Assembly: GCA_900314565.1 (NCBI GenBank)
Contig: OMVU01000046.1
Span: forward strand, 1 to 33,570
DNA length: 33,570 nt
Direction: 5' to 3'
DNA from: an uncultured Eubacteriales bacterium
GTDB taxonomy: Bacteria; Bacillota; Clostridia; Lachnospirales; Lachnospiraceae
This document shows positions 9,569-30,791 of this stretch, one piece after another. Both the position numbers and the translations under genes were made by a program. How positions within the stretch are numbered: the stretch's first letter is position 1; every line of letters begins with the position of its first letter. Under the pieces are notes generated by a model, which made no database searches, was not told where the DNA came from, and worked only from the letters and a program-made list of their open reading frames with translations.

Positions 9569-9693
9569 TTAAGAACGCCGCGGAGCCGGCATCAATACGC
9601 AACACGCATTGTGGGCCGGCTCCGACGTTCGTACTCATTTATTATTCAAGAACGCAAAGTGTTCTTGAAATCAGGAACACCTCGGAGTTCTTG
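9569..9693. repeat. Hairpin cluster related to the composite repeat
   Basis: Three inverted repeats follow one another: CGGAGCCGGC paired with GCCGGCTCCG (about 9575-9620), TTCAAGAAC paired with GTTCTTGAA (9645-9669), and a 22-nt hairpin with loop CTCG (9672-9693, CAGGAACAC against GAGTTCTTG, one mismatch). The last is followed by CCACGCCG, like the CCGCGCCG after the full copies elsewhere. Confidence 0.65.
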
Positions 9694-9707
9694 CCACGCC
9701 GTAAAGT

Positions 9708-9974
9708 TCACTTGTTATGCATCGGCAAAAAGAGAAAGATCAGGCATATCACAGAAGCCGCAATAAAGAGCGCACCCGTCCATTTTTTCGCAAACAGCCG
9801 GTGCATCGCCACGAGCGTGTTGAGGAACACTCCGAGGATCAGCGTCATATTGATGAGGATCACTCTGTAATTCCAGAACATGACCAGAAGAATACTGTTC
9901 GTAATGATCGCGATCGTCAGCATCACCACGATCCAGAAATACAGGATTTCTTCAAGAGGCCGTCTCTTCCTCAT
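9708..9974 (-). CDS. Small membrane protein, unknown
   Basis: An 88-residue protein with three predicted membrane helices (about residues 9-31, 36-56 and 66-83), a basic N-terminus (MRKRRPLEE, inside-positive) and a short C-terminal tail. I recognise no family. A clear GGAGG precedes the ATG by 9 nt, which supports a real gene despite the small size. It lies between argF and birA, with hairpin repeats on both sides, so it may be transcribed alone. Confidence 0.7.
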   Translation of the reverse strand: MRKRRPLEEILYFWIVVMLTIAIITNSILLVMFWNYRVILINMTLILGVFLNTLVAMHRLFAKKWTGALFIAASVICLIFLFLPMHNK

Positions 9975-10000
9975 TTACATATCCCTCCGGTCTTTCTGAT

Positions 10001-10022
10001 CAGGAACGCTCCGACGTTCCTG
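10001..10022. repeat. 22-nt H1 hairpin of the dispersed repeat
   Basis: CAGGAACG and CGTTCCTG form an 8-bp stem in a 22-nt unit. Compared with the CAAGAACG...CGTTCTTG copies, one stem pair has changed on both sides (A-T to G-C), a compensatory change. Confidence 0.65.
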
Positions 10023-10040
10023 CCTTATTTGCCGCCCTCC

Positions 10041-10236
10041 GGTCATGGCTGCTTTTCCTATACGCGGAACCTGCTCCGCTCCGGCCACGACTGCTTTTCA
10101 TATGCACGGAACCTGCTCCGCTCCGGCTATGGCTGCTTTCCATATGCGCGGAACCTGCTCCGCTCCGGCCACGACTGCTTTCCCTATGCGCGGAACGCAC
10201 TCTGTCCGGCGATCGCTGCTTTCCCTATATACGGAA
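10041..10236. repeat. 42-nt tandem repeat abutting the argF stop
   Basis: Units begin CGGAACCTGCTCCG at 10065, 10107 and 10149, with a diverged fourth at 10191 and a half unit before. The spacing is exactly 42. The array ends next to the argF stop codon at 10238. The unit length is a multiple of three, so open frames cross it on both strands, but no start with a ribosome site supports coding. Confidence 0.88.
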
Positions 10237-10237
10237 C

Positions 10238-11182
10238 TCACTCCATATTTCCGAGCGTTGCGACCATGACCGCCTTGATCGTGTGCATCCGGTTCTCCGC
10301 CTCGTCGAACACGACAGACTGCGCGGATTCAAAGACTTCCTCGGTCACTTCATTTCCCTTGACCGCAGGCAGGCAGTGCATGAAGATCGTGCTCTCCTTG
10401 CCCGTCTTCGCCATGAGGGCTGCGTTGACCTGATACGGGGTGAGCAGTTTGATCCGCTCGGCTGCCTTGGCTTCTTCGCCCATGGATGCCCAGACATCCG
10501 TGTAAATGACGTCTGCGCCCTGCACCGCGTCCACATCCTCCGTGATCGTGATCGTCGATCCCGCCTCTTCTGCATATCCGCGCGCAAGTTCGACAAGGCT
10601 CTCCTCCGGCCACAGCTCCTTCGGGGCGATGATCGTGAGGTTCACGCCCATCTTTCCGCATCCGACGAGGAAGGAGTTCGCCATGTTGTTGCGGCCGTCC
10701 CCGAGGAAGACAAAATTCTTTCCGGCGATCGTTCCGAACTTCTCACGCATGGTCAGAAAGTCCGCAAGGATCTGGGTCGGATGGAAGTCATCCGTGAGAC
10801 CGTTCCAGACCGGAACGCCTGAGTATTTCGCGAGCTTTTCGACATTTTCATGAAGAAATCCGCGGAACTCGATCCCGTCGAACATACGGCCGAGAACACG
10901 CGCGGTGTCCTCCACGCTCTCCTTCTTGCCGAGCTGAATGTCTTCGACGCCGAGATACTCCGCGCGGCCGCCCTCATCCTGCGCGCCGACCGTAAATGCG
11001 CATCTTGTACGTGTAGACGGCTTTTCAAAGATAAGCGCGATATTCTTATTTTCAAGAGAATGTCCGTAGATTCCCTTTTTCTTCTTAGCCTTGAGATCTG
11101 CCGCAAGATCGAGAAGATATCCGATCTCCTCCGGCGTAAAATCCTTCAGCGTGAGAAAGCAGCGGCCGTGTAAGTTCACCAT
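10238..11182 (-). CDS. argF: Ornithine carbamoyltransferase
   Basis: Condenses ornithine and carbamoyl phosphate to citrulline in arginine synthesis (or runs in reverse in arginine catabolism; sequence alone does not decide). The carbamoyl-phosphate loop is [11 protein letters not shown] (near residue 54). [11 protein letters not shown] and the ornithine site MHCLPAVKG (near residue 270) are intact. The length of 314 is normal. GAGGAGG precedes the ATG. A weak promoter candidate lies at 11228-11256 (TTGCAA, 17 nt, TATCTT). No other arg gene is adjacent. Confidence 0.96.
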
Positions 11183-11284
11183 GATTTTTCCTCCTCACAA
11201 AACAAAGTTTTGCGTATTGACTTTGCAAAGATAATATACTTGAAAGCTTATTGCAATTTTCAGGAGGTGTCAACCTGAATATCC

Positions 11285-11380
11285 GAAAGCTCCCGTAAAT
11301 TTGGCAATACGGGCTTCTTATAATATTGGCAATGTACCCCTCTCAATATCGAAAGCTCACCACATTAAGCGATGAGCTTC
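11285..11380 (-). promoter_or_regulatory. Two related hairpins between the methyltransferase and argF
   Basis: On the minus strand two hairpins (11351-11380 and 11285-11317) each begin GAAGC and end GAGCTTTCG, then ATATT. The inner stems differ (TCA with TGA; CCGTA with TACGG) but each pairs internally. They may be a leader element of argF or a tandem terminator; neither has a clean T-tract. Confidence 0.45.
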
Positions 11381-11405
11381 CGTCTGCATATCTCAACTCT
11401 GAAAA

Positions 11406-12176
11406 TTACTCTCCCCGCTGCCGTCTTGCCTCATACATGAGGATCCCCGCAGCCATCGCCGCGTTGAGGGACTCGACCTTTCCGGACATTGGTATCTTCA
11501 TCAGAACATCCAGGCTGTCCGAGAGGGCGTCAGTGAGGCCGCGGCTTTCATTTCCGATAAAAAATGCCGTTCCGCCGCGGAAGTCGAGCTCCGTGTAGGC
11601 ATGCGTTCCGCGGAGATGGGCCGCAAAGGTCCTGACCTCTCTCTCCGCGAACCGTGCAAGAAGCGCGTCCATGTCGTCCACATAAAAATGCGGCACCCGA
11701 TAGATCGCCCCCATCGTAGACCGGATCGTCTTCGGATTATAAAGGTCGACCGCCCCCTGTGTCAGGAAGACCGCATGAACTCCGGCGGCCTCCGCCGTGC
11801 GGAGGATCGTTCCGGCATTTCCCGGATCCTGGATGTTCTCGAGGACCAGAAAAAGAGGAGACTCCCGCATGAGGATTTCATCCAGGTCGAACTCCGGCTT
11901 TCTCTGTACAGTGAGGATTCCCTGAGGATTTTTCGTATCCGATATTCCCGCAAAGCGCTCCTCCCTGATGTCCAGGATCCGCTCCGCGGCCGGCGGGATC
12001 ATCCCGATGAGCTCCGGGTTCTCCCGGGTGAACTTCGCTGTCGCGCAGACCGCGACGATCCTCTCCGGCGGTGCCTCACGGAAGAGGTTAATTCCTTCCG
12101 TGACAAAAAGGCCCTGCACATCGCGGGCCTTCTTGTTCTTTTCAAGATTTTTGATTTCTTTGAATGAAATACTCAC
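11406..12176 (-). CDS. TrmH/SpoU-family RNA 2'-O-methyltransferase
   Basis: SAM-dependent ribose methylation of rRNA or tRNA by a SPOUT enzyme with a deep trefoil knot. The three family motifs are present: ENIQDPGNAGTILRTA (motif 1), FFIGNESRGLT (motif 2) and IPMSGKVESLNAAMAAGI (motif 3). An N-terminal substrate-binding domain of about 100 residues precedes them, as in RlmB-type 23S rRNA enzymes, but the exact target cannot be read. Start is GTG at 12176, 7 nt after the pfkA stop. The nearest purine-rich site, GAGGAG, lies 13 nt upstream inside pfkA, so coupling to pfkA translation is likely. Confidence 0.92.
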   Translation of the reverse strand: MSISFKEIKNLEKNKKARDVQGLFVTEGINLFREAPPERIVAVCATAKFTRENPELIGMIPPAAERILDIREERFAGISDTKNPQGILTVQRKPEFDLDEILMRESPLFLVLENIQDPGNAGTILRTAEAAGVHAVFLTQGAVDLYNPKTIRSTMGAIYRVPHFYVDDMDALLARFAEREVRTFAAHLRGTHAYTELDFRGGTAFFIGNESRGLTDALSDSLDVLMKIPMSGKVESLNAAMAAGILMYEARRQRGE

Positions 12177-12183
12177 CTTAAGA

Positions 12184-13203
12184 TCAAAGCTCCTCGTCCT
12201 TGAGAGCTGCCTCAGACTTATAGTAATTGTGGGACAGGGATCCGCAGATCTCGATCTGATAATTATCGATATCTTTCTTCATCGCCAGTGCTTCGTTGAT
12301 ATCGAAATCGCAGAACTCACCTTTACAATAGCTTACGACTCTCTTTGTCTTGCCTGCCGCAAGAAGATCGACCGCCAGGCAGCCCATCGTGGACGCATAG
12401 ACACGGTCTTTACAGGTCGGGCTTCCGCCTCGCTGCATGTAGCCGAGAATCGTAGCACGCGTCTCCATACCGGTCGCAGCTTCGATACGTCTTGCCATTG
12501 ATCCGGAATGTCCGACACCTTCAGCATTTATGATGATGTGATGTGTCTTGCCGCGTCTTCTGTTGTCAATGATGTTGTCGATCAGCTTCTGCTCATCGTA
12601 ATCATAGCGCTCCGGAAGAAGAACATCTTCCGCGCCGTTCGCGATGCCGCACCACAGAGCGATGTAGCCGGCATTACGGCCCATGACCTCGATAATGGAG
12701 CATCTCTCATGGGAAGAGGATGTATCGCGGACTTTATCAATTGCTTCCATGGCTGTGTTGACAGCCGTATCGAATCCGATCGTGTACTCTGTGCAGGCAA
12801 TATCCAAATCGATCGTACCCGGGACGCCGACAACGTTGATTCCCTCGTTCGCAAGTTTCTCTGCGCCGCGATAAGAACCGTCACCTCCGATTACGACAAG
12901 TCCTTCGATACCGTACTTGTGGCAGACTTCGACTGCTCTCGCAATACCTTCCGGTGTGCGCATCTCTTTGCAGCGAGCCGTTCCGAGGACAGTACCGCCC
13001 TTCTCGATCGTGTCGGAGACATCGCTGGCCTTCATTTCCTTGATGTCTTCCTCCATAAGGCCTGTATAGCCTCTCTTAATACCATAGACGTTCATGCCTC
13101 TTGCAAGGCCATGACGCACAACTGCGCGAATCGCCGCGTTCATTCCCGGCGCGTCGCCACCGCTTGTGAGAACACCGATTGTTTTAATCTTTTTTTCAGC
13201 CAT
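12184..13203 (-). CDS. pfkA: ATP-dependent 6-phosphofructokinase
   Basis: Phosphorylates fructose 6-phosphate to fructose 1,6-bisphosphate, the committed step of glycolysis. GVLTSGGDAPGMNA opens the protein. The GGDGSYRGA loop has Gly where PPi-dependent enzymes have Asp, so ATP is the expected donor. The catalytic loop reads GTIDLDI: both Asp residues are kept, but Leu replaces the usual Asn of TIDND. MGRNAGYIAL and MQRGGSPTC are also normal. I chose the ATG at 13203, giving 339 residues, because GAGGGGGA lies just upstream and the family starts here, not at 13257. It has its own promoter and is followed directly by the methyltransferase gene. Confidence 0.97.
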   Translation of the reverse strand: MAEKKIKTIGVLTSGGDAPGMNAAIRAVVRHGLARGMNVYGIKRGYTGLMEEDIKEMKASDVSDTIEKGGTVLGTARCKEMRTPEGIARAVEVCHKYGIEGLVVIGGDGSYRGAEKLANEGINVVGVPGTIDLDIACTEYTIGFDTAVNTAMEAIDKVRDTSSSHERCSIIEVMGRNAGYIALWCGIANGAEDVLLPERYDYDEQKLIDNIIDNRRRGKTHHIIINAEGVGHSGSMARRIEAATGMETRATILGYMQRGGSPTCKDRVYASTMGCLAVDLLAAGKTKRVVSYCKGEFCDFDINEALAMKKDIDNYQIEICGSLSHNYYKSEAALKDEEL

Positions 13204-13289
13204 TGTATTGTCCCCCTCGGGAGTGTTTTTGCACTTTTGACTATGAATCCCGCACATTATTCAATATTTCTGTGCATGTTTACTCTATT

Positions 13290-13318
13290 ATTCTAAAGCA
13301 ATAGAAGTTACTTTTCAA
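13290..13318 (-). promoter_or_regulatory. Sigma-A promoter of pfkA
   Basis: TTGAAA (13313-13318), 17-nt spacer, TAGAAT (13290-13295), in the gap between dnaE and pfkA. Confidence 0.8.
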
Positions 13319-13323
13319 GTGCT

Positions 13324-16300
13324 TTATGAGATTCGAGCTTTCCTCATAGCCCTGATTTTTACGTTTTCTGCACCGCAGATTTTCCTCATGAGCTCCGAGA
13401 GTTCCTCTGTGATCCGGATCCTCCTGCCGCGCGTCTCCTCCCGGTAGCTTTTGGTGTCTCTCAGGAACACAAAGACCGCATCATTTCCGTTCTCAGCGGA
13501 AAGAAGCAGTTCGTTCATCTCCTGCGCTTTTTCCGCCCATTCCTTCCTGGAGGAAAATGCAAGCCACATCTCCCGCGCGACCTCTGAAAATGCCGTCACT
13601 TTTTCGCAGATCAGCTTGCTCGGCCTGTCGTCCTCAGCGGAGACTCTTCCCTCAATGAGGACCTTGTTATCTTCGACGAGCAGTTCCCTGTACTGCTCGA
13701 ACGGCTTCGGGAAGACCAGCACCTCGACCGATCCCACCAGATCCTCCACCGTGACAAAGGCCATGACCTTATTTGTCCGGGTATACTTGATCGTCTTTCC
13801 GGTGATCATTCCGCCGATGACCTGCCTGGAATCATTTTCAATCGTCGGCTCACTTCCGTCTTCCCCCAAGGTGAATTCCAGCGAGACGGCGGACGTGCAG
13901 CTGTTCAGGATATCCTGATATTCCTCAAGCGGATGGCCGCTCAGATAGACGCCGAGCACATCCTTTTCAAAGGCCAGGAGCTGCTCCCTGTCGAATTCGG
14001 GGACATTGGGAAGTGAGATTTCATAGGCTTTCTTCACCTCCGGAGCCATAAAGTCGAAAATCGACATCTGTCCGGCCATGTTCTCTTTGCTGTCTGCCGC
14101 GACAGAGTCGAGGATCTTCGGGTAAATGAGCATCAGCTGGTTCCTGCTGCCCGGCAGACAGTCCATGGCCCCCGCCTTGATGAGGTTCTCGATTGCCCGC
14201 CGGTTCAGATCTTTCCCGTACGTCCGCTCAATAAAGTCCTTGATGCTCTCGAAGGGTCCTCTCTGTTCACGCTCTGCGACGATCATATCGATCACGCCCC
14301 GGCCGATGCTCTTGATTGCATACATCCCGTATCGGATCTTCCCGTCCTCCGTCGTAAAAGGACCGTTCCCCGAATTGATGGAGGGAGGCAGGATCCGGAT
14401 CTTCATTTCCCGGCAGTGCATGATATACTCCGAGCACTTATCCGGATTATCGATCACGCTTGTCATGAGCGCGGCCATGAACTCGACCGGATGGTAATAC
14501 TTCAGGTAGGCAGTCTGGAAGCAGACCACCGCATAGGCTGCCGCGTGGGATTTATTGAACGCGTAGTTCGCAAAATCCGTCATCTCATCGAATATATGCT
14601 TCGCGACAGCTTCCGGGATTCCGTTCGCAACACAGCCGGGAACATTTTCCTCCGGATTCCCGTAAATGAAATTCCGGCGCTCCTTCTCCATGACAGAAGC
14701 CTTTTTCTTGGACATCGCCCTTCGCACAAGGTCTGACCGGCCGTAGCTGTAGCCTCCGAGGTCGCGGACGATCTGCATGACCTGCTCCTGATAAACGATG
14801 CAGCCGTAGGTCGGCTCAAGGATCGGACGCATCTCTTCGCACTCGTAGACCACGGTCTCCGGGTGATCCTTACCCTTAATATATTTCGGAATAAAGTCCA
14901 TCGGACCCGGACGATAGAGCGCGATCCCCGCGATAATGTCCTCAAGCGTGTGCGGCTTCAGCTGCTTCATGAAGGATTTCATTCCCGCGGACTCGAGCTG
15001 GAAGACACCCTCGCACTTTCCGCGGCCGATCATTTCCATGACACCGGGATCGTTGTAGTCGACGAGCGAAAGATCCAGTTCTTCATTTTTCCCTTCCGCT
15101 GCATACCGGCGGTTCACGAGCTCCACGGCATCCTGGATGACCGTCAGGGTCCGAAGCCCCAGGAAGTCCATCTTGAGAAGCCCCAGCTCCTCAAGCGTCG
15201 TCATCGTGTACTGCGTGGTGATCGAGCCGTCCTGGGCTCTGGCAAGAGGAACATATTCCCTGACCGGAAGCTGGGAAATGACGACCCCCGCCGCGTGCAT
15301 GGAGGTATTGCGCGGGAGGCCCTCGAGACGTTTCGCCATGTCGATAAGATAATGGACCTTCTCATCCTCCTCGTACCGGGTCTTCAGGTCCGGATTCATC
15401 GAAATCGCCCGATCCAGCGTGATGTTCAGCTCCTTGGGGATCATCTTGGCGATCTCATCCGCCTCCGAGTAGGGCAGGTCGAGGACGCGGGCTACGTCAC
15501 GGATGACACCGCGGGCAGCCATCGTACCGAACGTAATGATCTGAACGACCCGGTCCCTCCCGTACTTCCCAACGACATAGTCGATGACCTCCTGTCTGCG
15601 CTCGAAGCCGAAATCCATATCGATATCAGGCATGGTCACGCGCTCCGGATTCAGGAAGCGCTCAAAGATCAGATTGTATTTGAGCGGGTCGAGGTCCGTG
15701 ATGCCGAGCGAGTAGGATACAACGGAGCCGGCCGCACTGCCGCGGCCCGGTCCGACCGCGATTCCATGGTCCCGGGCAAATTTGACGTAATCCCATACAA
15801 TAAGGAAGTAATCGACGAAGCCCATCCCGCGGATCGTGTTCAGTTCGTCCGTGAGGCGCTTCTCCACCTCCTCCGTCACGGGGTGATACCGTTCCTCTAT
15901 TCCTTTCCGGCACAGTTCACACAGATAAGAATACGAATCGTACCCCTGCGGCACATCGTATTTCGGGAGCTTGCGCTCACCGAACGTGATCGTCACGTTG
16001 CACCGCTCGGCTATTTTTTCCGTGTTGTCGACCGCTTCCGGCACAAAGCGAAAGAGTTCCCGCATCTCATCGGGGGATTTCACATAGTACTGGCCGCCCT
16101 CGTAGCGCAGGCGGTCCTCGTCCATGACTTTCTTTCCTGTCTGAATGCAGAGCAGGATGTCATGAGAATCCACATCCTCCCGGTAAGTATAGTGACAGTC
16201 ATTGGTGCAGACCAGAGGAAAGCCTTCCTCGTCGTGCATCCGGATCAGCTGGCGGTTGACGTGCCTCTGCTCCGGGATCCCGTGATCCTGCAGCTCGAGG

Positions 16301-16815
16301 AAAAAGTTGTCCTCCCCGAAAATCTCGCGGTACTCAAAGGCAGCTTTTTTTGCCCCCTGATAGTCCCCGCGCATGATTGCCTTCGGGATCTCGCCCGCAA
16401 GGCAGGCAGACAGGCAGATAATGCCCTCGTGATACGTCCGCAGCAGCTCTTTGTCGACGCGGGGCTTGTAATAAAACCCGTCGACAAAACCGCCGGAGAC
16501 GATTTTCATGAGGTTCTCATACCCTTTATTGTTCTCGGCCAGAAGGATCAGATGATAGTATCGGTCCTCTCCTGCGGCACTTTCTCTGTCAAAACGGCTT
16601 TTCGGGGCAACGTAGACCTCACAGCCGAGGATCGGTTTGATTCCCTGCTTCATTGCCTCCCGATAGAAATCGATGCACCCGTACATGACGCCGTGGTCCG
16701 TGACCGCGCATGCTGTCATCCCGAGCTTTTTGACCTGGGATACATATTCCGATATTTTGTTGGAGCCGTCCAGCAGCGAATATTCCGTGTGGACGTGAAG
16801 GTGGGTGAACGGCAT
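13324..16815 (-). CDS. dnaE: DNA polymerase III subunit alpha (DnaE)
   Basis: Replicative family C DNA polymerase. The N-terminal PHP domain starts with FTHLHVHTEYSLLDG. Catalytic Asp residues lie in PDIDMDF (near residue 397) and KMDFLGL (near 552), and VGPGRGSAAGSVVSY (near 355) is the nucleotide-binding loop. A helix-hairpin-helix/beta-binding region follows, and the OB-fold spans about 995-1060 (IGGMITGKTIKYTRTNKVMAFVTVED). The length of 1163 is normal for DnaE; the organism should also carry PolC elsewhere, as low-GC Gram-positives do. AAGGAGG precedes the ATG. It is followed by pfkA, a classic Clostridia order. Confidence 0.97.
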   Translation of the reverse strand: MPFTHLHVHTEYSLLDGSNKISEYVSQVKKLGMTACAVTDHGVMYGCIDFYREAMKQGIKPILGCEVYVAPKSRFDRESAAGEDRYYHLILLAENNKGYENLMKIVSGGFVDGFYYKPRVDKELLRTYHEGIICLSACLAGEIPKAIMRGDYQGAKKAAFEYREIFGEDNFFLELQDHGIPEQRHVNRQLIRMHDEEGFPLVCTNDCHYTYREDVDSHDILLCIQTGKKVMDEDRLRYEGGQYYVKSPDEMRELFRFVPEAVDNTEKIAERCNVTITFGERKLPKYDVPQGYDSYSYLCELCRKGIEERYHPVTEEVEKRLTDELNTIRGMGFVDYFLIVWDYVKFARDHGIAVGPGRGSAAGSVVSYSLGITDLDPLKYNLIFERFLNPERVTMPDIDMDFGFERRQEVIDYVVGKYGRDRVVQIITFGTMAARGVIRDVARVLDLPYSEADEIAKMIPKELNITLDRAISMNPDLKTRYEEDEKVHYLIDMAKRLEGLPRNTSMHAAGVVISQLPVREYVPLARAQDGSITTQYTMTTLEELGLLKMDFLGLRTLTVIQDAVELVNRRYAAEGKNEELDLSLVDYNDPGVMEMIGRGKCEGVFQLESAGMKSFMKQLKPHTLEDIIAGIALYRPGPMDFIPKYIKGKDHPETVVYECEEMRPILEPTYGCIVYQEQVMQIVRDLGGYSYGRSDLVRRAMSKKKASVMEKERRNFIYGNPEENVPGCVANGIPEAVAKHIFDEMTDFANYAFNKSHAAAYAVVCFQTAYLKYYHPVEFMAALMTSVIDNPDKCSEYIMHCREMKIRILPPSINSGNGPFTTEDGKIRYGMYAIKSIGRGVIDMIVAEREQRGPFESIKDFIERTYGKDLNRRAIENLIKAGAMDCLPGSRNQLMLIYPKILDSVAADSKENMAGQMSIFDFMAPEVKKAYEISLPNVPEFDREQLLAFEKDVLGVYLSGHPLEEYQDILNSCTSAVSLEFTLGEDGSEPTIENDSRQVIGGMITGKTIKYTRTNKVMAFVTVEDLVGSVEVLVFPKPFEQYRELLVEDNKVLIEGRVSAEDDRPSKLICEKVTAFSEVAREMWLAFSSRKEWAEKAQEMNELLLSAENGNDAVFVFLRDTKSYREETRGRRIRITEELSELMRKICGAENVKIRAMRKARIS

Positions 16816-16876
16816 AGCGCCTCCTCCTTACGGAAATAATATGAGTCAGGCTCTTGCGAAACTCTGTGCGAAATAG

Positions 16877-16977
16877 AAAAAAGAGCTGCCGCTTCAAGGA
16901 ATTGATCACTATATACAGCAGATGCACTGATAACGATCTGTCATATATAGCAAGTTCACTCCTCAATACGGCAGCTC
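16877..16977 (-). terminator. Long-loop terminator or structured leader before dnaE
   Basis: On the minus strand GAGCTGCCG (16969-16977) pairs with CGGCAGCTC (16883-16891), followed by six T. The ~77-nt loop holds an inner stem, CTATATA with TATATAG plus CAG with CTG. It can end the upstream membrane-protein transcript; because a structured, regulator-sized domain sits inside the terminator stem and dnaE starts ~60 nt later, an attenuator is possible. Confidence 0.6.
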
Positions 16978-17020
16978 ACTCACCTGCTTTACAAAATGGT
17001 CTCATGCAGTCCCGTTCTGC

Positions 17021-17671: not shown

Positions 17672-17747
17672 AGACGTCTTCTCCCCCTTAACATGTATCT
17701 GTTATCAGTTCCGGGCCGTCGCAGTCCGGAATTTATTTGTCCCTACT

Positions 17748-17777
17748 ATTATAATACTACTATGCGTCCTTCCTCAA
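17748..17777 (-). promoter_or_regulatory. Probable promoter of the TM198-like gene
   Basis: TTGAGG (17772-17777), 18 nt, TATAAT (17748-17753), overlapping the last codons of cvfB. Confidence 0.55.
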
Positions 17778-18591: not shown

Positions 18592-18664
18592 GATGAAACC
18601 TCCGGAATTCATCTGGTTTTACGCCGCTGTGCATTGAACGGTCATACATGTTTCTTTATTTATT

Positions 18665-18888
18665 CAAGAACGCCTCAGCGTTCTTGCCGCGCCGCGCAGG
18701 GTGTGAAGCACTTTCTTCTTTGCAGGACTGCGATCCACCGTGCCTAAGCATGCGTAACAATGCTCCAGTGGAGCATTGTGGAGCTGAGGCGTTTATCTCA
18801 GTGGAGGATTGAAACCCGCCATTTTAGACAAACAGGATATTGTTTTACCACCGTTTGCAGAAGCGGGGTTTTCCCACACTGAGATAAA
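18665..18888. repeat. Composite multi-hairpin repeat, copy 1
   Basis: Successive modules on the plus strand: H1 hairpin (18665-18686, CAAGAACGC with GCGTTCTTG, loop CTCA); H2 GC-rich part (about 18687-18725); a linker with CTGCGATCCACCG; a perfect 10-bp palindrome with one central base (18758-18778, arm CAATGCTCCA); and H3, a 97-nt foldback (18792-18888) with terminal TTTATCTCAGTG and CACTGAGATAAA. No gene lies in the 367-nt gap 18592-18958. Confidence 0.8.
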
Positions 18889-21510: not shown

Positions 21511-21573
21511 CTCATTATGAGCGTTTATATAATTGCCATTCTCGGATCAGCCGTCTGAAGCAGTGTTTCAAAT

Positions 21574-21756
21574 CAAGAACGCCTCGGCGTTCTTGCCGCG
21601 CCGCGCGAGGTGCGAAGCACCTTCCTAATTGCGCGGCTGCGATCCGCCGGAGGCTTTAATCTCTGACGAGGGTTTGTATCCCACGTCAGAGAAAAGTTTC
21701 ACTTTGCGCATTCATCTCACGATTGAAATCACGAGAATTCTGCGTCAGAGATTAAA
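21574..21756. repeat. Composite multi-hairpin repeat, copy 2
   Basis: H1 hairpin at 21574-21595 (same stem as copy 1, loop CTCG). H2 at 21596-21635 has AGGTGC-GAA-GCACCT inside GCGCG ends. The linker CTGCGATCCGCCGGAG follows. H3 foldback at 21655-21756 has terminal TTTAATCTCTGACG and CGTCAGAGATTAAA (14 bp, perfect). This is the most compact and complete copy. Confidence 0.82.
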
Positions 21757-21763
21757 AAGATCA

Positions 21764-22360
21764 TTAGGTACAGGAAGCATATATCTATCTGATATTCCCC
21801 AAGGATTTCTGCTTTTTTATGGCAATTTAGGTACAGGGGACAACTTTCTATCTGATGTTCCCCAAGGATTTCTGCCTCTCTGCGCCGTTTAGGTACAGGC
21901 AGCAGGTTTCCGTCAACTGTACTCCACATATCAGGCAGGGATATGGAGAACAAATACCAGAAAATTCACCTACGTACCTAATCTGCCGAATGACGACGCA
22001 TTCTTATGGGGAACAATTCTTAGAAATTCCACCTACGTACCTAATCTGCCAAGGACGACGCATTCTTATGGAGAACAATTCTTTGAAATTCCACCTACGT
22101 ACCTAATCTGCCAAAAACGACGCATTCCTACGGGGAACAATTCTTAGAAATTCCACCTACGTACCTAATCTGCCAAGGACGACGCATTCTTATGGGGAAC
22201 AATTCTTAGAAATTCCACCTACGTACCTAATCTGCCAAAGACGACGCATTCCTACGGGGAACAATTCTTAGAAATTCCACCCACGCACCTAATCTGCCAA
22301 AGACGACGCATTCTTACGGGGAACAAATATCAGGAAATCCATCAACATGCCTGATCAGCC
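21764..22360. repeat. 62-nt repeat array that reverses orientation
   Basis: Left part: units beginning TTAGGTAC at 21764, 21827 and 21889. Right part: units containing TACGTACCTAATCTGCC at 21971, 22034, 22096, 22158 and 22220, with diverged copies at 22282 and about 22344. The left unit is recognisably the reverse complement of the right one (TTAGGTAC against GTACCTAA, TTCCCC against GGGGAA at the same offset). The turn lies at about 21905-21965. No gene is seen in this interval. Confidence 0.88.
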
Positions 22361-22423
22361 GAATAAGAGGGCTCATATTTACACGAAACAAACCATCAGG
22401 AACACCTCTCTGGTCTTCCCGAT

Positions 22424-22447: not shown

Positions 22448-22484
22448 ACCGATGATCCTCCCGGAGGCACGCTCCCCCGGAGGA

Positions 22485-22700
22485 TATCAGGAATAGCTGA
22501 TATTTCTGTTCGGACAACGGAGGCACACCCCCGAAAGAATTCAGGAATGGTCGATATTGCTGTTCGGACAACGGAGGCACACCCCCGAAAGAATTCAGGA
22601 ATGGTCGATATTGCTGTTCGGACAACGGAGACACACCCCCGAAAGAATTCAGGAATGGTCGATATTGCTGTTCGGACAACGGAGACACACCCCCGAAAGA
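22485..22700. repeat. 54-nt tandem repeat just after sacA
   Basis: Units starting ATTCAGGAATGGTCGATATT lie at 22539, 22593 and 22647, with a diverged first unit at 22485. The array ends about 6 nt from the sacA stop codon. The length is a multiple of three, so long open frames cross it, but no ribosome site supports them. Confidence 0.88.
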
Positions 22701-22705
22701 TATTC

Positions 22706-24166
22706 TTATACGATAAATTCGTCACTCACCGCCGGCCTGATCTTCCAGATCTGCACGCCGCTCGCGCCCTCCGCGCGGAAGAAGTGCTCCTCCTCCGTCG
22801 GGAAGACTCTGGATGAGAAGACCGCGTCGCCCTCGTTGACGAAGATCTCCACGGAACTCCGGTCGATAAAGATCCGCATGGTCGAAAGCGGGAACTCCGT
22901 CGGATGCTCGCGCATCTCCCCCTGGTCAATATTGAACCGCTTTGTAAGTCCGGAGCGGTCCACCGTGACCATCTTCCACGCAGCGTCATAGTAGATCATG
23001 ATTCCGCCGGTCCCGTCTGCCTTCGTGAAGAGAGACAGCGTCATATTTCCTCCGTCGCTCTTTACGATCATCTCGCACGCCTCGGGAAGGATCCCGTCCG
23101 CCGGGTCTACCTCGTCGCCGCGAAGAGCTTCAAGCCCCGGAAGCGGGACCTGGATCAGACGGCGGTCACGGATCCTCAGCTCCCGCGGAAGGGTGAGGCA
23201 TCCGGACCATTCATCCTCATCCGTCGGATAGGAAGAATCCGGAAGACCCATCCACGCGACCAGGATCTTGCTGGCAGGATCAGGACTGTTGTTGGCGCAC
23301 TCCGCCGCATAGGAGTCGAAGCCGAAATCCAGGACATGGAATTTGCCGTCGGGGGTAAAGGTCAGTGTGGACCAGTCCATCGTCCCGAGAATATATCCGT
23401 TGTGGTTCGTCACATCCCCGCGGTGGATAAGCTTCATGTGCTGCGGGCAGAAAATGAGAACATCCTTGTCCCCGATCCGCTCAATTGCAGGGCATTCCCA
23501 CATGCCGCCGAAGTCCTCGAAGCCGGGGACATTCAGCTTTCCGGCAAATTCCCATCCCTCCGAAAGAGATTTGGACCGGTAGATCAGCATGCAGCCTTTT
23601 TTATCCTTCGTCTGTCCGCCGTTGCAGATATAATAATATCCGGTCTCCTCATCAAAAAGGATCTTCGGATCTCTCTGATGCTCCGTGTAATCCGGATGCG
23701 GTCCGAAGAGAGGCTCGGCCTTCTTCTCGCCCGTATTATCATCGAAAAGCGTATACATGCAGGTGTATGGTATCCTCGTCCAGTCCGGATCTCTGTGATT
23801 ACCGGTATAGAAAAGCTGCAGCTTGTCTCCTTCCGGCCAGGCAGATCCGGAATACGCACCCTTATTGTCGAGATCGCAGTCCGGTTTGATCGTCACGCCG
23901 ACATTTTCCCATGTAATGAGATCGCGGCTTACGGTCTGATACCAGTATTTGAGTCCGTGGACAGCTCCCCACGGGCACCATTGATAGAATAAATGCCATT
24001 TCCCGTCGTGCCAAACAAATCCGTTCGGATCATTCAGAAGGCCTGTGACGGGCTGGATGTGATACGTCTGCCTGTAAGGCGTCTTCTTGATCCGTTCATA
24101 CAGGTCTCTGATCTCCTCAGGACTTTTGAGGACACGGTAGCGTTCTTCCCTGCTCCAGTTCTTCAT
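22706..24166 (-). CDS. sacA: GH32 sucrose-6-phosphate hydrolase / beta-fructosidase
   Basis: Cleaves sucrose 6-phosphate (or sucrose/fructans) by the retaining mechanism of GH32. The nucleophile lies in GLLNDPNGFVWHDGKWHLFYQW (near residue 48), the transition-state Asp in HQRDPKI, and the acid/base Glu in GGMWECPAIE. The C-terminal beta-sandwich ends with MRIFIDRSSVEIFVNEGDAVFSSRVFP. There is no signal peptide, so the enzyme is cytoplasmic, which favours the phosphorylated substrate. It is 486 residues long from the ATG at 24166, chosen for GGAGGGA upstream. No PTS or transporter gene is adjacent. Confidence 0.92.
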   Translation of the reverse strand: MKNWSREERYRVLKSPEEIRDLYERIKKTPYRQTYHIQPVTGLLNDPNGFVWHDGKWHLFYQWCPWGAVHGLKYWYQTVSRDLITWENVGVTIKPDCDLDNKGAYSGSAWPEGDKLQLFYTGNHRDPDWTRIPYTCMYTLFDDNTGEKKAEPLFGPHPDYTEHQRDPKILFDEETGYYYICNGGQTKDKKGCMLIYRSKSLSEGWEFAGKLNVPGFEDFGGMWECPAIERIGDKDVLIFCPQHMKLIHRGDVTNHNGYILGTMDWSTLTFTPDGKFHVLDFGFDSYAAECANNSPDPASKILVAWMGLPDSSYPTDEDEWSGCLTLPRELRIRDRRLIQVPLPGLEALRGDEVDPADGILPEACEMIVKSDGGNMTLSLFTKADGTGGIMIYYDAAWKMVTVDRSGLTKRFNIDQGEMREHPTEFPLSTMRIFIDRSSVEIFVNEGDAVFSSRVFPTEEEHFFRAEGASGVQIWKIRPAVSDEFIV

Positions 24167-24187
24167 AGCATTCCCTCCGCAAAAATT

Positions 24188-24400
24188 CAATTCTCGCTCG
24201 CGAGAATTGGCGCGGGATTCGGGTCAGCGTAAGCTGACATAATACCCAACCGAATCCCTGCGCATCCTCGCGGAGCGTTTATCTCAGTGGGGGATTGTAA
24301 CCCACTATCTCAGTGGGGGATTGTAACCCACCACTGAGACTGGCAGGATATTGTTTTACCCGCCGCTTGTAGAAGCGGGGGTCTTCCCCACTGAGATAAA
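24188..24400. repeat. Composite multi-hairpin repeat, copy 3
   Basis: H1 at 24188-24209 keeps the 9-4-9 plan and CTCG loop, but its stem is different: CAATTCTCG with CGAGAATTG. H2 is GCGCGGGATTCGGGT against ACCC..CCGAATCCC..GCGC. H3 foldback at 24278-24400 has terminal TTTATCTCAGTG and CACTGAGATAAA, with an exact 26-nt internal duplication (24280-24305 and 24306-24331). Without the duplication it is 97 nt, exactly as in copy 1. Confidence 0.8.
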
Positions 24401-24425
24401 AACACATCCCCGACCAACTTATCTT

Positions 24426-24525
24426 TTTTCGGCAAATAGCCTTTCGCCTCTTTTCAGCAAACAGCCTTTCGCCTCTTTTCAGCAAACAGCCTTTCGCCTT
24501 TTTTCGGCAAACGGCCTTTCCTCCG
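24426..24525. repeat. 25-nt tandem repeat, four copies
   Basis: Units start TTTTC(A/G)GCAAA at 24426, 24451, 24476 and 24501. Confidence 0.88.
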
Positions 24526-24617
24526 CGCCGGATCTAAACGCAGTCCGGCGCTGCTTTTCATTTCCCGGCAAAGACTTCTGACAGTGCACTCCTTTCCAGC
24601 GTTTTTTTCTAAGGCGC

Positions 24618-24652
24618 CTGCGAAATTCATTGAAAAAAACTCCGTTTCGCAG
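24618..24652. other. Inverted repeat upstream of the GH1 gene
   Basis: CTGCGAAA (24618-24625) and TTTCGCAG (24645-24652) flank an A-rich loop. The remaining 24653-24867 is AT-rich, with TATAAT hexamers at 24785 and 24808 but no convincing -35. Confidence 0.4.
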
Positions 24653-24825
24653 CTGCCCGGTCTTTTTTCACGAACTTTACTTCTGATCTTTATTATAACA
24701 CGAACAGCCCCTGCAATCGACCTTGTGAGAAGAAATGACCTGTCAAATCCTCAATTCTTTTATGCAATCTGATGTATTTTCCCATATAATTACCCCGCCC
24801 TTTTTTGTATAATCACAATATATAA

Positions 24826-26289
<1,464 letters not shown>

Positions 26290-26293
26290 GAAC

Positions 26294-26446
26294 TGATCCC
26301 GACCAGGGGATGAGCCCGACCGGGGGATGATCCCGACCAGGGGATGATCCCGATCGGGGGATGAACCGGACCAGCGGATGAACCCAACCGGGGAATGAAC
26401 CGGACCAGCGGATGAACCCGACCGGAGGATGAACCGGACCAGCGGA
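26294..26446. repeat. 17-nt tandem repeat just after the GH1 stop
   Basis: Nine units of 17 nt, consensus near TGATCCCGACCAGGGGA, begin 5 nt after the stop. Most start with TGA, and since 17 is not a multiple of 3 this puts stops in all three plus-strand frames. Confidence 0.88.
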
Positions 26447-26488
26447 TGGCCCGGATTGAAATCTGAGCCGAACACACGCATAAAAAAT

Positions 26489-26533
26489 CAGGACGGACTG
26501 AATCAGCATTGACTGCAGTTTAAGTCCGTCCTG
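26489..26533. terminator. Bidirectional terminator
   Basis: CAGGACGGACT pairs with AGTCCGTCCTG (11 bp), with A's before and TTTATTT after. It serves the GH1 gene and, from the other side, possibly the CmpB-like gene. Confidence 0.88.
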
Positions 26534-26610
26534 TTTATTTGCCTTTCCTGTTCTCAGAGACTGCTCCGCAGCATGACTGTTCCGCGGCGCCTTTTTTTCT
26601 TTAACCTTCT

Positions 26611-26757
26611 GCTTTCCTGAACTTCGACGTCTGCTTCCCTGAACTTTGACGACTGTTTTCCTGAACTTAGACGTCTGCTTCCCTGAACTTTGACGACTGT
26701 TTTCCTGAACTTAGACGTCTGCTTTCCTGAACTTCGACGTCTGCTTCCCTGAGATGG
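26611..26757. repeat. 22-nt tandem repeat downstream of the CmpB-like gene
   Basis: Units such as GCTTTCCTGAACTTCGACGT start at 26611, 26633, 26655, 26677, 26699, 26721 and 26743 (partial). Alternating variants give a 44-nt higher-order period in the middle. Confidence 0.88.
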
Positions 26758-26813
26758 AATCACCGGGAAGCTTTGCCCAAAGATCCTGAAGCCTTCCCTT
26801 ATATATTGTCGGT

Positions 26814-27776
26814 TCAGGCCTTCCCGCCTCTGTCTTTCTTTTTTATCTGCAGATCCCGCTGAACAGCAAGGAGCGCATCACTGTATTTTCTGTGCGCCAT
26901 AGCGGGGAATGCTTCCAGAAGACGACGGGATCCGAAAAATCTTCCGGACATAATATTCTCCTTCAGAGCGCCGGCCCTCTCCTGAAGTTCTCTCGTCCGC
27001 TGTCTCGTCTGATCTGCTTTGTCCTGCATTTTCTTCTTCTGTTTGTTTACAGCATCTCTCGCCTCATATTTTGCCAGCGTCGCCTGGACCCTCTGTTCTT
27101 CGATCGTCGTCTGTGCGCGCATGGTCCCCGTTGCGAGCTTTTCACTCAGCTCGTCGCTGACAACGCTCATGCGTCTCCTGACTTCATCCAGCTCCTCCAG
27201 CTTTTTATTGAGGCCTGCTACAATGAGGACCGTCACGACGAAGTCTGCCAGTAAGGTCACATACGATACTCCGAGGATGATCCAGCCTATCAAATCAGGA
27301 ATATTCAGCACCAGATTTGCCATGGCAGGCTGGACCACACGGACGACCAGAAGGCAGGCCAGGCCCCAGATGAGACTGAAACGAAGGCATATGTATCCGC
27401 GAAAATTGAACGGCTCGTTACTGTAATCCCACCACCTCATGTGAAAAGCCACGTCAAGCAGCCAGCCGGCAAGAAGTTCCACTGCCGTCGCAAGAGCGAC
27501 GCCGCACACGAACACGATCAGGATCCCGATGATATCATCTCCGCCGGTCAGCTTCTCTGCGGGGTAATGAAAAATATCCGGGAGCACACCGTCCACCACA
27601 GCAAAGACGGATATCGCCCCAAATCCGTAGACAGGGCATACCGGTCCGCACAAAAAACCTCTGTTGATGACTTTACCGACTGTGATCGCATGGAAAATGA
27701 CCTCAATGCACCAGCCGGCAAATGAATAAATTAAGAAGTACCAGAAGATCTGGTAAATCGTCATTCCGGCAATCAT
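26814..27776 (-). CDS. CmpB-family membrane protein (putative ABC permease)
   Basis: A 320-residue membrane protein matching the family annotated as putative ABC transporter permease (CmpB type); the name is historical and transport is unproven. Signature phrases are FLIYSFAGWCIEVIF, VINRGFLCGPVCPVYGFGA and HMRWWDYSNEPFNFRGYICLRFSLIWG. There are about five to six helices in residues 5-190, then a long charged, probably coiled-coil cytoplasmic tail (190-300). AGGAGG precedes the ATG. No ATPase partner is nearby. Confidence 0.88.
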   Translation of the reverse strand: MIAGMTIYQIFWYFLIYSFAGWCIEVIFHAITVGKVINRGFLCGPVCPVYGFGAISVFAVVDGVLPDIFHYPAEKLTGGDDIIGILIVFVCGVALATAVELLAGWLLDVAFHMRWWDYSNEPFNFRGYICLRFSLIWGLACLLVVRVVQPAMANLVLNIPDLIGWIILGVSYVTLLADFVVTVLIVAGLNKKLEELDEVRRRMSVVSDELSEKLATGTMRAQTTIEEQRVQATLAKYEARDAVNKQKKKMQDKADQTRQRTRELQERAGALKENIMSGRFFGSRRLLEAFPAMAHRKYSDALLAVQRDLQIKKKDRGGKA

Positions 27777-27929
27777 ACTCTACTTTCCTCCTGTATAAAG
27801 AACGCCTTGGCGTTATTCTTGACCGGTCCTGACTTCTTCCTTAAAGAACAGTCACAGTCACGATCATTATATTCTCTGAAATTTTCTGATTCCAGAACAG
27901 TCCCGCTGAAACTCTTCAGCATGAAGACG

Positions 27930-28682
27930 TCATTCTCCTGCCGTCCGAATCGCATCCGCTGCACGTTTCGAGCCCTGCTTCGCCGCATAACGGCACCATT
28001 TAAGCCCTTTCTCCGTGTTCGCCGGCACGTCGAGCGTTCCTTCCAGATAGGCGATGCCCAGATCCGCCGCTGCCTCGACGTCTCCGCGCGCAGCCCGGTC
28101 AATGAGGTTCATTCGCTGCTCCTTCAGAAGGAGCTTCTGTGCCGTCTCCCGCACCATTTCGAGCTCTTCCGTGAAGATGCAGTGCGGAATGGAATTTGAC
28201 GTCACGAGCTCCACACACTCGTCAAAGTCGAACCATCTGACTTCCGAGACCTCGGACTCCTGAAGAATATAGGCATCCTCATCAGCGTCGCAGAACGCGA
28301 GAAAGACCCTTGAGACCTGATTGTCATGAAAGATCTCATTATGAAATGTTTTCTTAAATTCAAAGGATCTCTGTCCGCAGACAACAAGATCTTTCGGCTG
28401 CGCCTGCACTCCGAGCTCTTCATAAAGTTCTCTGAGAGCCGATTCCTCAAAATCCTTTCCCGCCGGAATATGTCCCGCGCTCGAGATGTCATAGCAGCCC
28501 GGGTGGGAGTCCTTGCTTTCACTGCGTTTCTGCAGCAGGATCTGCAGCCGGTCATCCTTTGTGCGGACGAGCCAGACATGGCTTGTGCGGTGACGGATCC
28601 CTTTCCGGTGGGCAAGGCTCCTGGTTACGGTGTAGCCGGTCGGCTGACCGGATTCATTGACAATATCAAATATTTCTTCCAA
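27930..28682 (-). CDS. Nudix hydrolase fused to a Sel1-like repeat
   Basis: Nudix domain in residues ~1-170 (IDI-like subgroup: VTRSLAHRKGIRHRTSHVWLV, then ISSAGHIPAGKDFEESALRELYEELGV). The last two-thirds of the Nudix box is perfect (RELYEELGV with three metal-binding Glu), but the first Glu of G-x5-E is Lys. The C-terminal ~55 residues form a Sel1/TPR-type repeat (AARGDVEAAADLGIAYLEGTLDVPANTEKGLKWCRYAAKQG). The best start is a TTG at 28682, with GAGGAG about 5-6 nt upstream, giving 250 residues; the longer frame to 28817 begins in repeat-rich spacer. Substrate unknown. Confidence 0.82.
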   Translation of the reverse strand: MEEIFDIVNESGQPTGYTVTRSLAHRKGIRHRTSHVWLVRTKDDRLQILLQKRSESKDSHPGCYDISSAGHIPAGKDFEESALRELYEELGVQAQPKDLVVCGQRSFEFKKTFHNEIFHDNQVSRVFLAFCDADEDAYILQESEVSEVRWFDFDECVELVTSNSIPHCIFTEELEMVRETAQKLLLKEQRMNLIDRAARGDVEAAADLGIAYLEGTLDVPANTEKGLKWCRYAAKQGSKRAADAIRTAGE

Positions 28683-28837
28683 AATGATCTCCTCTTTTCC
28701 AATTAGAATCAGGCACTTGCGCAGGATATTTCTGTTATTTACAGCACAGAGCCTGTCCTTCATGCAGGACATTTCCAAGTATAGTCCTGTTGGGAAAAAA
28801 GCGCAAACTGAATACATACAATGTTCTCCACTATATT

Positions 28838-28914
28838 CAAGAACGCCTCAGCGTTCTTGCCGCGCCGCGCGAGGTGCGAAGCACCTTCTTCTTTGCGCGA
28901 TGAAGAATAAAAAA
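28838..28914. repeat. Composite multi-hairpin repeat, copy 4 (H1-H2 half)
   Basis: H1 at 28838-28859 (stem and loop as copy 1) and H2 at 28860-28899 (AGGTGC-GAA-GCACCT within GCGCG ends, almost identical to copy 2). Then comes ATGAAGAATAAAAAA instead of the linker and H3. The 20 nt GCGCGATGAAGAATAAAAAA (28895-28914) recur exactly at 30772-30791. Confidence 0.8.
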
Positions 28915-28917
28915 AAT

Positions 28918-28946
28918 TTGACAAACCCGCTTTTTTGGGATATAGT
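28918..28946 (+). promoter_or_regulatory. Sigma-A promoter of the amylase gene
   Basis: TTGACA (28918-28923), 17 nt, TATAGT (28941-28946). It starts 4 nt after the end of the repeat half-copy and implies a leader of about 250 nt before the chosen start codon; 28947-29203 shows no clear riboswitch. Confidence 0.85.
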
Positions 28947-29203
28947 ACGCGACGTAAGCTGAAAATACGTCTTTCGGGTACATCCGGAGATTCATTTTCT
29001 TCTATATTAATAGTGATCATCGGGTTCGCGAAGCGGTCCTGATGGTTGACTTCTCAGGCATCACATGAGATAAACATAAGTGAGAGAGTATAATAATGAC
29101 AGGTATTGATATACATACATTGCGGCAGCGGCTGCTGTCGCGGATCGGCTTCGCGCCGGGAACCAAAGGCGCGGGCCCGGGAGAGAAGAAAGAAGGGGCT
29201 AAT

Positions 29204-30673
29204 ATGTCTGAAAATAAAACAATGATGCAGTATTTTGAATGGTATCTTCCCAATGACGGTCTCTGGTGGAAGCGCTGCGCCGCCAAGGCGGAAAACTTAA
29301 AAGAACTGGGCGTAACGGACGTCTGGCTTCCGCCGGCATACAAGGCAACGAAACAGGATGACGTCGGCTACAGCGTCTACGACATGTATGATCTGGGCGA
29401 GTTCGACCAGAAGGACACGGTCCGCACAAAGTACGGGACCAAGGAAGAATATAAGGAAGCAATACAGGCTTTTCACAACGCGGGGATCAACGTCTTCGCC
29501 GATATCGTTCTGAATCACAGGATGGGCGGTGACGAGCTCGAGGAAGTCACAGCTGTCACCGACAACCCGGAAGACAGGAACGAACAGATCGGCGACGAGG
29601 AGAAGATCCTTACCTGGTCGAAGTTCACATTCCCCGGACGCGCCGGCAAATACAGCAAGTTCACCTGGGATCACACGGATTTCACGGGCACGGACTGGGA
29701 CGAGCGCACACAGTCGAAGGATGTCATTTACCGCTTCACGGGCAAGGAATGGCGTCCCGACACGGATCCGGAAAAGGGAAATTTCGACTACCTGATGGGT
29801 ATGAATGTCGATATGGAAAACCCGGAAGTCATCCGTGAAACAAAGAAATGGATGAACTGGTACCTGAAGGAGGCCGGATTTGACGGCTTCCGTCTGGATG
29901 CGGTGAAGCATATCAGCTTTTCATTTTACAGGCAGCTGCTTGAAGATATCCGTGAAAAGCAGGGACGGGAAATTCCTGCCGTCGGCGAGTACTGGAGCGG
30001 CGACATCGGAAGACTTCTGTACTACCTCGAACAGGTCAATGACGAGATGAGGCTCTTTGACGTAGCGCTTCACTATCATTTCTTCGACGCGTCGCACGCG
30101 GGCGGAAATTACGATATGCGAAATCTGCTCACGGACACGCTGATGACGAGGAAGCCGGAAAGTGCCGTGACCTTCGTCGACAATCATGATACGCAGTTCG
30201 GTCAGAGTCTTCAGTCTTTCGTGGACGACTGGTTCAAGCCGCTCGCGTACGCAGCGATCCTGCTTCGTGAGGAGGGTATTCCGTGTGTCTTCTACACGGA
30301 TTATTACGGAAATCCGGTACAGAACCGGCCTCCGGTCCCGAATCTCGGCAAGATGATGAAGATCAGAAAGCTCTATGCCTACGGCGAGCAGGTAGATTAC
30401 TTCGACGACGAGCATGTGGTCGGCTGGGTACGCCGCGGGGACGAGCACTGGTTCTCCGGAATGGCAGTCGTCATGAGTGACAATGCGGCAGGAACCAAAA
30501 AGATGGAGATGGGAAAGAACTATGCCGGCGTCACCTTCTACGACGTGACGGGCGAGTGCCCGGATCCGATCGTCATCGACGAGGACGGGTTCGGCGAATT
30601 TGGTACGGAGGCCGGAAAAGTTTCCGTGTGGGTGTGCCGCGGGGCGTTTGAGAACCTGATCGTAAATGAATAA
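29204..30673 (+). CDS. amyA: Cytoplasmic alpha-amylase (GH13)
   Basis: Hydrolyses internal alpha-1,4 bonds of starch or glycogen-type glucans. MMQYFEWYLPNDGLWW is the signature opening of GH13 subfamily 5. Calcium and substrate regions FADIVLNHRMGGDE, the nucleophile in GFRLDAVKHI (near residue 234), the acid/base Glu in AVGEYWSGD (near 266) and the third Asp in TFVDNHDTQ (near 330) are all intact. There is no signal peptide from the ATG at 29204 (489 residues; AGAAGGGG upstream), so it is intracellular. An in-frame ATG at 29096 would add 36 low-complexity residues and is less likely. It is bracketed by two halves of the composite repeat. Confidence 0.94.
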   Translation: MSENKTMMQYFEWYLPNDGLWWKRCAAKAENLKELGVTDVWLPPAYKATKQDDVGYSVYDMYDLGEFDQKDTVRTKYGTKEEYKEAIQAFHNAGINVFADIVLNHRMGGDELEEVTAVTDNPEDRNEQIGDEEKILTWSKFTFPGRAGKYSKFTWDHTDFTGTDWDERTQSKDVIYRFTGKEWRPDTDPEKGNFDYLMGMNVDMENPEVIRETKKWMNWYLKEAGFDGFRLDAVKHISFSFYRQLLEDIREKQGREIPAVGEYWSGDIGRLLYYLEQVNDEMRLFDVALHYHFFDASHAGGNYDMRNLLTDTLMTRKPESAVTFVDNHDTQFGQSLQSFVDDWFKPLAYAAILLREEGIPCVFYTDYYGNPVQNRPPVPNLGKMMKIRKLYAYGEQVDYFDDEHVVGWVRRGDEHWFSGMAVVMSDNAAGTKKMEMGKNYAGVTFYDVTGECPDPIVIDEDGFGEFGTEAGKVSVWVCRGAFENLIVNE

Positions 30674-30679
30674 ATTCCG

Positions 30680-30791
30680 CCGGAGGACTTAAACTCTGAG
30701 CGGGTCTGTATCCCATACAAAAGAGAAGTTTCGCTTTGTGAGCGTATCTCATGTCCAAAGACACGGGTATTGCGCGATGAAGAATAAAAAA
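30680..30791. repeat. Composite multi-hairpin repeat, copy 5 (linker-H3 half)
   Basis: CCGCCGGAGG is followed by a decayed H3 that resembles copy 2 (CTCTGA, TGTATCCCA, GAAGTTTCGCTTTG, ATCTCA, CACG). It ends with GCGCGATGAAGAATAAAAAA at 30772-30791. H1 and H2 are absent. Confidence 0.65.

Follow-up and report, generated by a model that had tools for sequence, protein, structure and literature searches.

Multi-hairpin repeats of an uncultured Lachnospiraceae genome are probably non-autonomous IS200/IS605-like transposons

As described in the cited accounts of IS608, ISDra2 and IS200, insertion sequences of the IS200/IS605 group insert without target duplication and keep the target motif at the left flank; a guide pairs with this motif, a further guide and a cleavage motif lie at the right end, and the hairpins are subterminal (PMC5934647, PMC6006769, PMC7290912). 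IS608 is reported to have been retargeted in the laboratory by a change of its guide (PMC5934647). The palindrome-associated transposable elements (PATEs) of Haloquadratum are described as transposase-free, with near-terminal palindromes related to IS605-type ends (PMC3119063), and REP/REPIN sequences as small multi-copy hairpin repeats with Y1 enzymes (TnpA-REP) and a canonical foot GTAG/GTGG (PMC6006769). Within the open-licence literature searched we found no description of the multi-hairpin family treated here.

Three full copies of such an element are present in the window, i.e. the whole stretch of 33,570 nt that was analysed, at 18664-18888, 21573-21756 and 24188-24400. They share the order H1-H2-linker-H3 that an earlier note on this DNA had proposed, and the partial copies it had placed at 9645-9693, 10001, 28838 and 30680 proved to be H1-like hairpins, a deletion derivative and an H3-only hybrid. 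Equally borne out is its description of the H1 stems CAAGAACGC, CAGGAACGC and CAATTCTCG, which differ yet each pair, with a loop that is mostly CTCR. The features are as follows.

9647-9667, + strand: solitary H1-like hairpin, identified by eye
9671-9701, + strand: H1-like hairpin and start of H2
10001-10022, + strand: solitary H1-like hairpin CAGGAACGC...CGTTCCTG
18664-18740, + strand: H1 (18665-18686) and H2 of copy 1
18741-18790, + strand: optional extra hairpin H2b of copy 1, 50 nt, between H2 and H3
18791-18796, + strand: internal guide GTTTAT of copy 1 (ATAAAC on the bottom strand)
18791-18888, + strand: H3 type c foldback of copy 1, ending in the target motif ATAAA (18884-18888)
21573-21649, + strand: H1 and H2 of copy 2
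21655-21756, + strand: H3 type a of copy 2, with guide TTTAAT (21655-21660) and target motif TTAAA (21752-21756, flank)
24188-24276, + strand: H1 and H2 of copy 3, second sequence family (H12v)
24277-24400, + strand: H3 type c of copy 3, with guide GTTTAT (24277-24282) and target motif ATAAA (24396-24400)
28837-28912, + strand: deletion derivative in which H1 and the 5' portion of H2 run directly into the final ~20 nt of a type b H3 at TTGCGCG
30682-30789, + strand: H3-only partial copy, a hybrid that begins as type a and finishes as type b

The start of H3 is duplicated in copy 3 (24275-24305 and 24301 onward). Short duplications of the first H3 arm recur, in the window at 24275-24305 and at loci L024, L009, L014 and L031, and possibly reflect slippage at the foldback. 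A junction like that at 28837-28912, with H2 fused to the end of a type b H3 at TGCGCG, was seen at L247 (346-428); similar derivatives are thereby present in two genomes, and both are likely the result of microhomology deletion. Many tandem arrays, with periods of 42, 62, 54, 25, 17 and 22 nt, occur within the 33 kb of the window (10030-10243, 21927-22422, 22474-22743, 24423-24520, 26272-26458 and 26579-26776), and the ORF at 4355-6358 reads by eye as a lysyl-tRNA synthetase that has a tRNA-binding domain at its C-terminus.

H3 occurs in several types, distinguished by their arms: CTCTGACG/CGTCAGAG in type a, CTTCATCG/CGATGAAG in type b, CTCAGTG/CACTGAG in type c, with a subtype c' that has the guide GTATAT, and CTTTCAGCAG/CTGCTGAAAG in the short type d of genome G028. 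The arms form an inverted repeat of ~13-15 bp, and in types a, b and c there are two possible partners for the first arm, the inner second and the outer third arm. There are four guide classes (TTTAAT, TTTTATT, GTTTAT and GTATAT), and the motif that closes H3 (TTAAA, ATAAA, AATAAA or ATATAT) is part of the target and complementary to the internal guide of 5-6 nt. Where an IS200/IS605 left end would have its subterminal hairpin, directly 3' of the guide, there is only H2b or, in copies that lack H2b, the weak hairpin GCCtccGGC.

The hairpins are not a product of chance: two window copies folded as bottom-strand DNA gave z = -5.70 and -5.95 compared with shuffles, and bottom-strand folds of four copies ranged from z = -5.70 to -9.90. 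The earlier note would have given up its reading if the stem differences did not covary in a larger alignment; among 45 diverse copies, chosen at <93% identity out of 91 distinct near-full-length copies, H1 and H2 display compensatory changes. Paired cells made up 89.6%, compared with 77.0% in shuffles and 25-54% when the columns were slid by 1-3, cells changed on both sides numbered 89 versus 21.6, pairs with both-sided changes 15 of 20 versus 11.1 (reached by 11 of 500 shuffles), and the covariation score was 0.358 versus 0.141 when shuffled and at most 0.149 when slid, the shuffle control overstating the significance because the copies are related. A pair count on 39 of the 45 copies had an arbitrary limit that excluded one badly decayed copy; the count reported here includes all 45, seven of which are second-family H1H2 rows that align poorly in H2. 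In H2, bottom-strand G.T mispairs outnumbered top-strand ones (33 vs 15 in the 39-row alignment A1; 26 vs 11 without the four H12v rows), while H1 mispairs favoured neither strand (14 vs 13).

Further copies in the genome, on which the earlier reading also hung, are present, for example as 48 loci in 400 kb. The genome of origin comprises 4,219,319 bases in 191 contigs; 40 H1H2 matches were scored out of 213 first-look candidates, with up to 100% identity for H1H2 of copy 2, and an H3 type c query gave 43 matches. The 400-kb sample consisted of three long contigs, in which blastn (E 1e-3) returned 74 hits that grouped into 48 clusters, with numerous fragments among them; since these contigs were already known to hold copies, extrapolation to ~500 loci genome-wide is rough. 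Within the genus, H1-H2 was found in 15 of 42 genomes. The midpoint of the locus fell outside ORFs of at least 150 aa in 47 of 54 loci, and all four arrangements of flanking genes occurred, 9-18 times each (52 of the 54 loci scored). IS200/IS605-type elements would be biased in orientation towards the lagging-strand template; relative to the coding strand, 35 loci were in the opposite and 19 in the same orientation, unevenly across contigs, with ratios of 18:3 on two and 17:16 on two.

Empty sites, which the earlier note had proposed to look for, were found in close relatives by two flank searches and one search in the reverse direction. Twelve were readable, 11 of them on both sides: one examined singly, four from 20 alignments and seven from 10 alignments, L275 among the last being readable on its right side only; the remaining alignments were unreadable or not clean. 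Genomes G034 and G041 are such relatives (CvfB-like protein 97% and 93% identical). At the 11 sites readable on both sides, no duplicated target of more than 1-2 nt was present. The A/T-rich sequence with which H3 closes existed, exactly or nearly, before insertion, with an exact 5-nt core in 5 of 12 sites and at least one core mismatch in 7 of 12. Thus the G034 site of the copy at 21573 reads ...GCTTCAATTGAAAAGATCATTAGG, with TTGAA where copy 2 has TTAAA; pre-insertion sites of c' copies (guide GTATAT) read TTTTTT^ATATATCATT in G041 and CCTAAAA^ATATATTCTG in G034; AATAAAA is the pre-insertion sequence of a type b copy with the guide TTTTATT; and at two sites, relatives that lack the element have the ATATAT target complete. 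At window sites 18664 (in G034) and 24188 (in G041) the element is absent, but the sites are not clean. The element is also in place in relatives, e.g. at L023 and L274:879, as judged by spacing. Several new copies at the end of older H3s were seen in G034 (CAGAG|TTCAAG and GATGAAGA|TTCAAG) and, as a nested insertion in the genome of origin, at L024 (CACTGAG|TTCAAG), a pattern that reuse of the retained target motif would predict; at the junction, one base departs from what a perfect insertion would leave. Another dispersed repeat (CTCTTGCGAAACTCTGTGCGAAATGGAATTG...) has many copies in G034 and G041 and lies in the flanks of L263:16716, L032 and L033.

Pre-insertion 6-mers, read by eye with small indel choices at sites selected as readable, scored 56.5 with their own guide class, compared with a mean of 34.5 for the other classes and a background of 18.3. 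From one subfamily to another, the pre-existing target varies along with the guide class (label permutation p = 1e-4, 12 sites); the own class was strictly best at 10 of the 12 sites, with a tie at L011 and a better fit to class a at L018 (type b). For inserted copies, 76 of 80 guide/flank records were used, four type d rows being left out and a few reverse-reading artefacts kept. Pairing of the guide with its own flank was 0.87, 0.84, 0.82, 0.84 and 0.86 at positions 1-5 and dropped to 0.50 at position 6 and 0.22-0.29 at positions 7-10. With flanks of other classes the values at positions 1-5 were 0.85, 0.46, 0.22, 0.69 and 0.86, those at positions 1, 4 and 5 being high because the classes share these letters. 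Flanks taken from other copies within a class paired with the guide about as well as the own flank (0.76-0.83), and the association is therefore one between classes and not between single copies. Insertion sites and guides together support the DNA side of the earlier proposal that a structure-recognised DNA or an RNA, rather than decay, underlies the conserved stems.

Sequence comparison thus shows, for this family, many copies, covarying stems, empty sites, insertion without duplication, a pre-existing motif and an association of guide with target class. We consider it probable that these are non-autonomous IS200/IS605-like (Y1/HUH) transposons, mobilised in trans as single-stranded DNA. The earlier note had likened H3 to non-autonomous IS200/IS605 derivatives; this likeness extends to the whole element, because duplication is absent, a target motif lies at one end and complementary guides lie within. 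An element of ~130-230 nt without a gene would be acted on in trans by a transposase, most likely an IS200-type TnpA, which would transfer the bottom strand through a single-stranded intermediate. H3 would form the left end, with the target motif (TTTAA, TTTAT, TTTATT or ATATAT) just outside the cut, followed by the foldback and then by the guide of 5-6 nt complementary to the motif. H1 would form the right end, where the guide CAAG would pair with the cleavage motif CTTGA around a small hairpin, as we infer for H1 of copy 1 on the bottom strand. Pairing of guide and target would itself pick the landing site, and no target duplication would be made.

Which enzyme might mobilise the family was approached through the Y1 HUH transposases that the earlier note had suggested seeking. 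Nine matches were found in the genome of origin; of IS200-type TnpA, only broken pieces of 98 and 61 residues were seen there, and the other Y1 genes are 30-38% identical. No copy of the element with its own transposase was found; L186, considered as an autonomous H1-H2-tnpA-H3 unit, was rejected, because its IS200 had inserted independently, at a TTTTAT within the guide region, and the same IS right end adjoins other DNA in L187. IS200 copies of the genus carry the guide ATAAA directly 5' of the left hairpin. Their four readable left targets are TTTTAT (G034), TTTAT (G000), TATTAT (G035) and TTTTCT (G000:C176, decayed), of which the first two match this guide while TATTAT and TTTTCT are not TTTAT. 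Their right ends read CAAG-hairpin-CTTGAC in G035 only, CCTGAC in most, and otherwise TATGAT or similar. Element types b and c share the left specificity of these IS200s, and H1 has the right pair of the G035 copy. Some IS200s of the genus have a small hairpin between cleavage site and guide, e.g. TGTCgcaGACA (by eye), so that H3 resembles this segment on a larger scale. The G034 TnpA matches NF033573 transpos_IS200 (160.7 bits) and the ISHp608 transposase. The element occurs in 8 of 10 genomes with a close IS200 TnpA and in 7 of 32 without (Fisher p 0.0016, kinship ignored), closeness being defined as at least 53% identity, a cut picked after viewing the list, and the matches in G007 and G009 containing a stop codon. 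A close IS200 TnpA is absent from the element-rich genomes G011 (76% complete) and G028. The link between IS200 TnpA and the element is circumstantial.

Y1 elements of the L044 and L193 types, with the targets TTGAA or a start (T)TCAAG, were considered as driver and not accepted; their likeness to H3, in types a and b, goes no further than a hairpin motif of the kind CTCGTG..CATGAG. No single Y1 type common to all eight genomes was seen in the list of Y1 matches, in which the proteins are unclustered. Of the five loci of a multi-copy Y1 element (L193, L200, L203, L206 and L209), four have a left end that begins with TTCAAGAAGAATAGGC and one has a left end that begins with GTCAAGAAG; the start of this element resembles the first letters of H1. 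Among the eight genomes, G009 and G028 have longer, weakly scoring Y1 proteins (L197 1114-1914, L196, L202), of which that of L197 looks RAYT-like.

Such proteins, together with the many intergenic copies, the hairpins and the solitary H1 copies, would fit a REP/REPIN-type element whose spread is due to a domesticated TnpA-REP (RAYT) and not to an IS200 TnpA. We regard this as quite unlikely, since the nine Y1 matches of the genome of origin include none of the weak full-length kind, the foot GTAG/GTGG was not seen by eye 5' of H1 or H2 in the 45 copies, and a target motif with a matching guide fits IS200 ends. It is very improbable that the element is a structured non-coding RNA or a transcript-end element, spread by whatever means, whose covariation reflects selection on a top-strand RNA: all four flanking-gene arrangements occur (9-18 each), Rfam at gathering score gives only a tRNA in the window, top-strand A.C mispairs outnumber G.T in H2, and the association of target motif and guide is left unexplained. 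The strong covariation, the stable folds and the 47 of 54 midpoints outside ORFs of at least 150 aa agree with an RNA, for which no positive evidence was found apart from folding itself.

A terminal-inverted-repeat MITE moved by a DDE transposase could take the H3 arms, an inverted repeat of ~13-15 bp, as its termini, but the two arms sit together at the same end of the unit, one arm's end is the pre-existing target, and target duplication is absent at 11 sites, making this explanation extremely improbable. A different objection concerns the guide alone: insertion might be loosely AT-directed, and the perfect guide-target match might arise afterwards by quasi-palindrome correction (hairpin template switching). 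The 5-nt core is indeed perfect in 11 of 12 inserted copies versus 5 of 12 pre-insertion sites (7 gained, 1 lost, p = 0.07), and part of the gained matches may be ordinary divergence between species. As the pre-insertion motifs already prefer their own class (p 1e-4) and exceed background (56.5 vs 18.3), and as the ATATAT target is complete at two sites of relatives lacking the element, we consider this unlikely. Group II introns, integron attC sites and IS91/Helitron-type insertion were also considered and not favoured.

For the IS200/IS605-like transposons favoured here, evolution seems to have retargeted one gene-less family more than once, with relatives preserving the pre-insertion sites. 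Sequence comparison can thereby test whether DNA-DNA pairing chooses the target, and small natural ends with guides of 5-6 nt become available for study. A single-strand transposon family would also explain many intergenic hairpins in a group of uncultured gut Lachnospiraceae. Tentatively, and with more doubt than conviction, we suggest a natural modular, self-retargeting single-strand transposon: guide and matching foldback part would be swapped as a unit between subfamilies, one transposase serving several target specificities. Thanks to the duplicated arm, the first arm could alternate between pairing with the donor cleavage side, arm 3, and pairing with arm 2, which would release the guide for a new target; where targets carry mismatches, template switching in the hairpin would afterwards convert them to fit the guide.

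BOX elements of the pneumococcus are, like the element, modular composite intergenic repeats, and unlike it they have, to our knowledge, no guide-target logic. With REP/REPIN sequences, as far as their cited account goes, it shares the form of a small hairpin repeat in many copies, and differs in that no GTAG/GTGG foot was seen. Like the PATEs described so far, it is transposase-free with near-terminal palindromes related to IS605-type ends; in contrast, some PATEs are core-deleted IS605 elements while no parent was found for the element, and its guide-target classes have no counterpart in the PATE description cited (PMC3119063). It shares with IS200/IS605 ends, in the features given by the accounts cited above, insertion without duplication, a retained left motif, a guide complementary to that motif, a putative guide/cleavage pair at the right end, and hairpins. 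It differs from them in having no transposase gene, an extra nested hairpin (H2) inside, and a contiguous Watson-Crick guide of 5-6 nt; what is new is the foldback of 40-100 nt between left cleavage site and guide, and the occurrence of several natural guide/target classes within one family.
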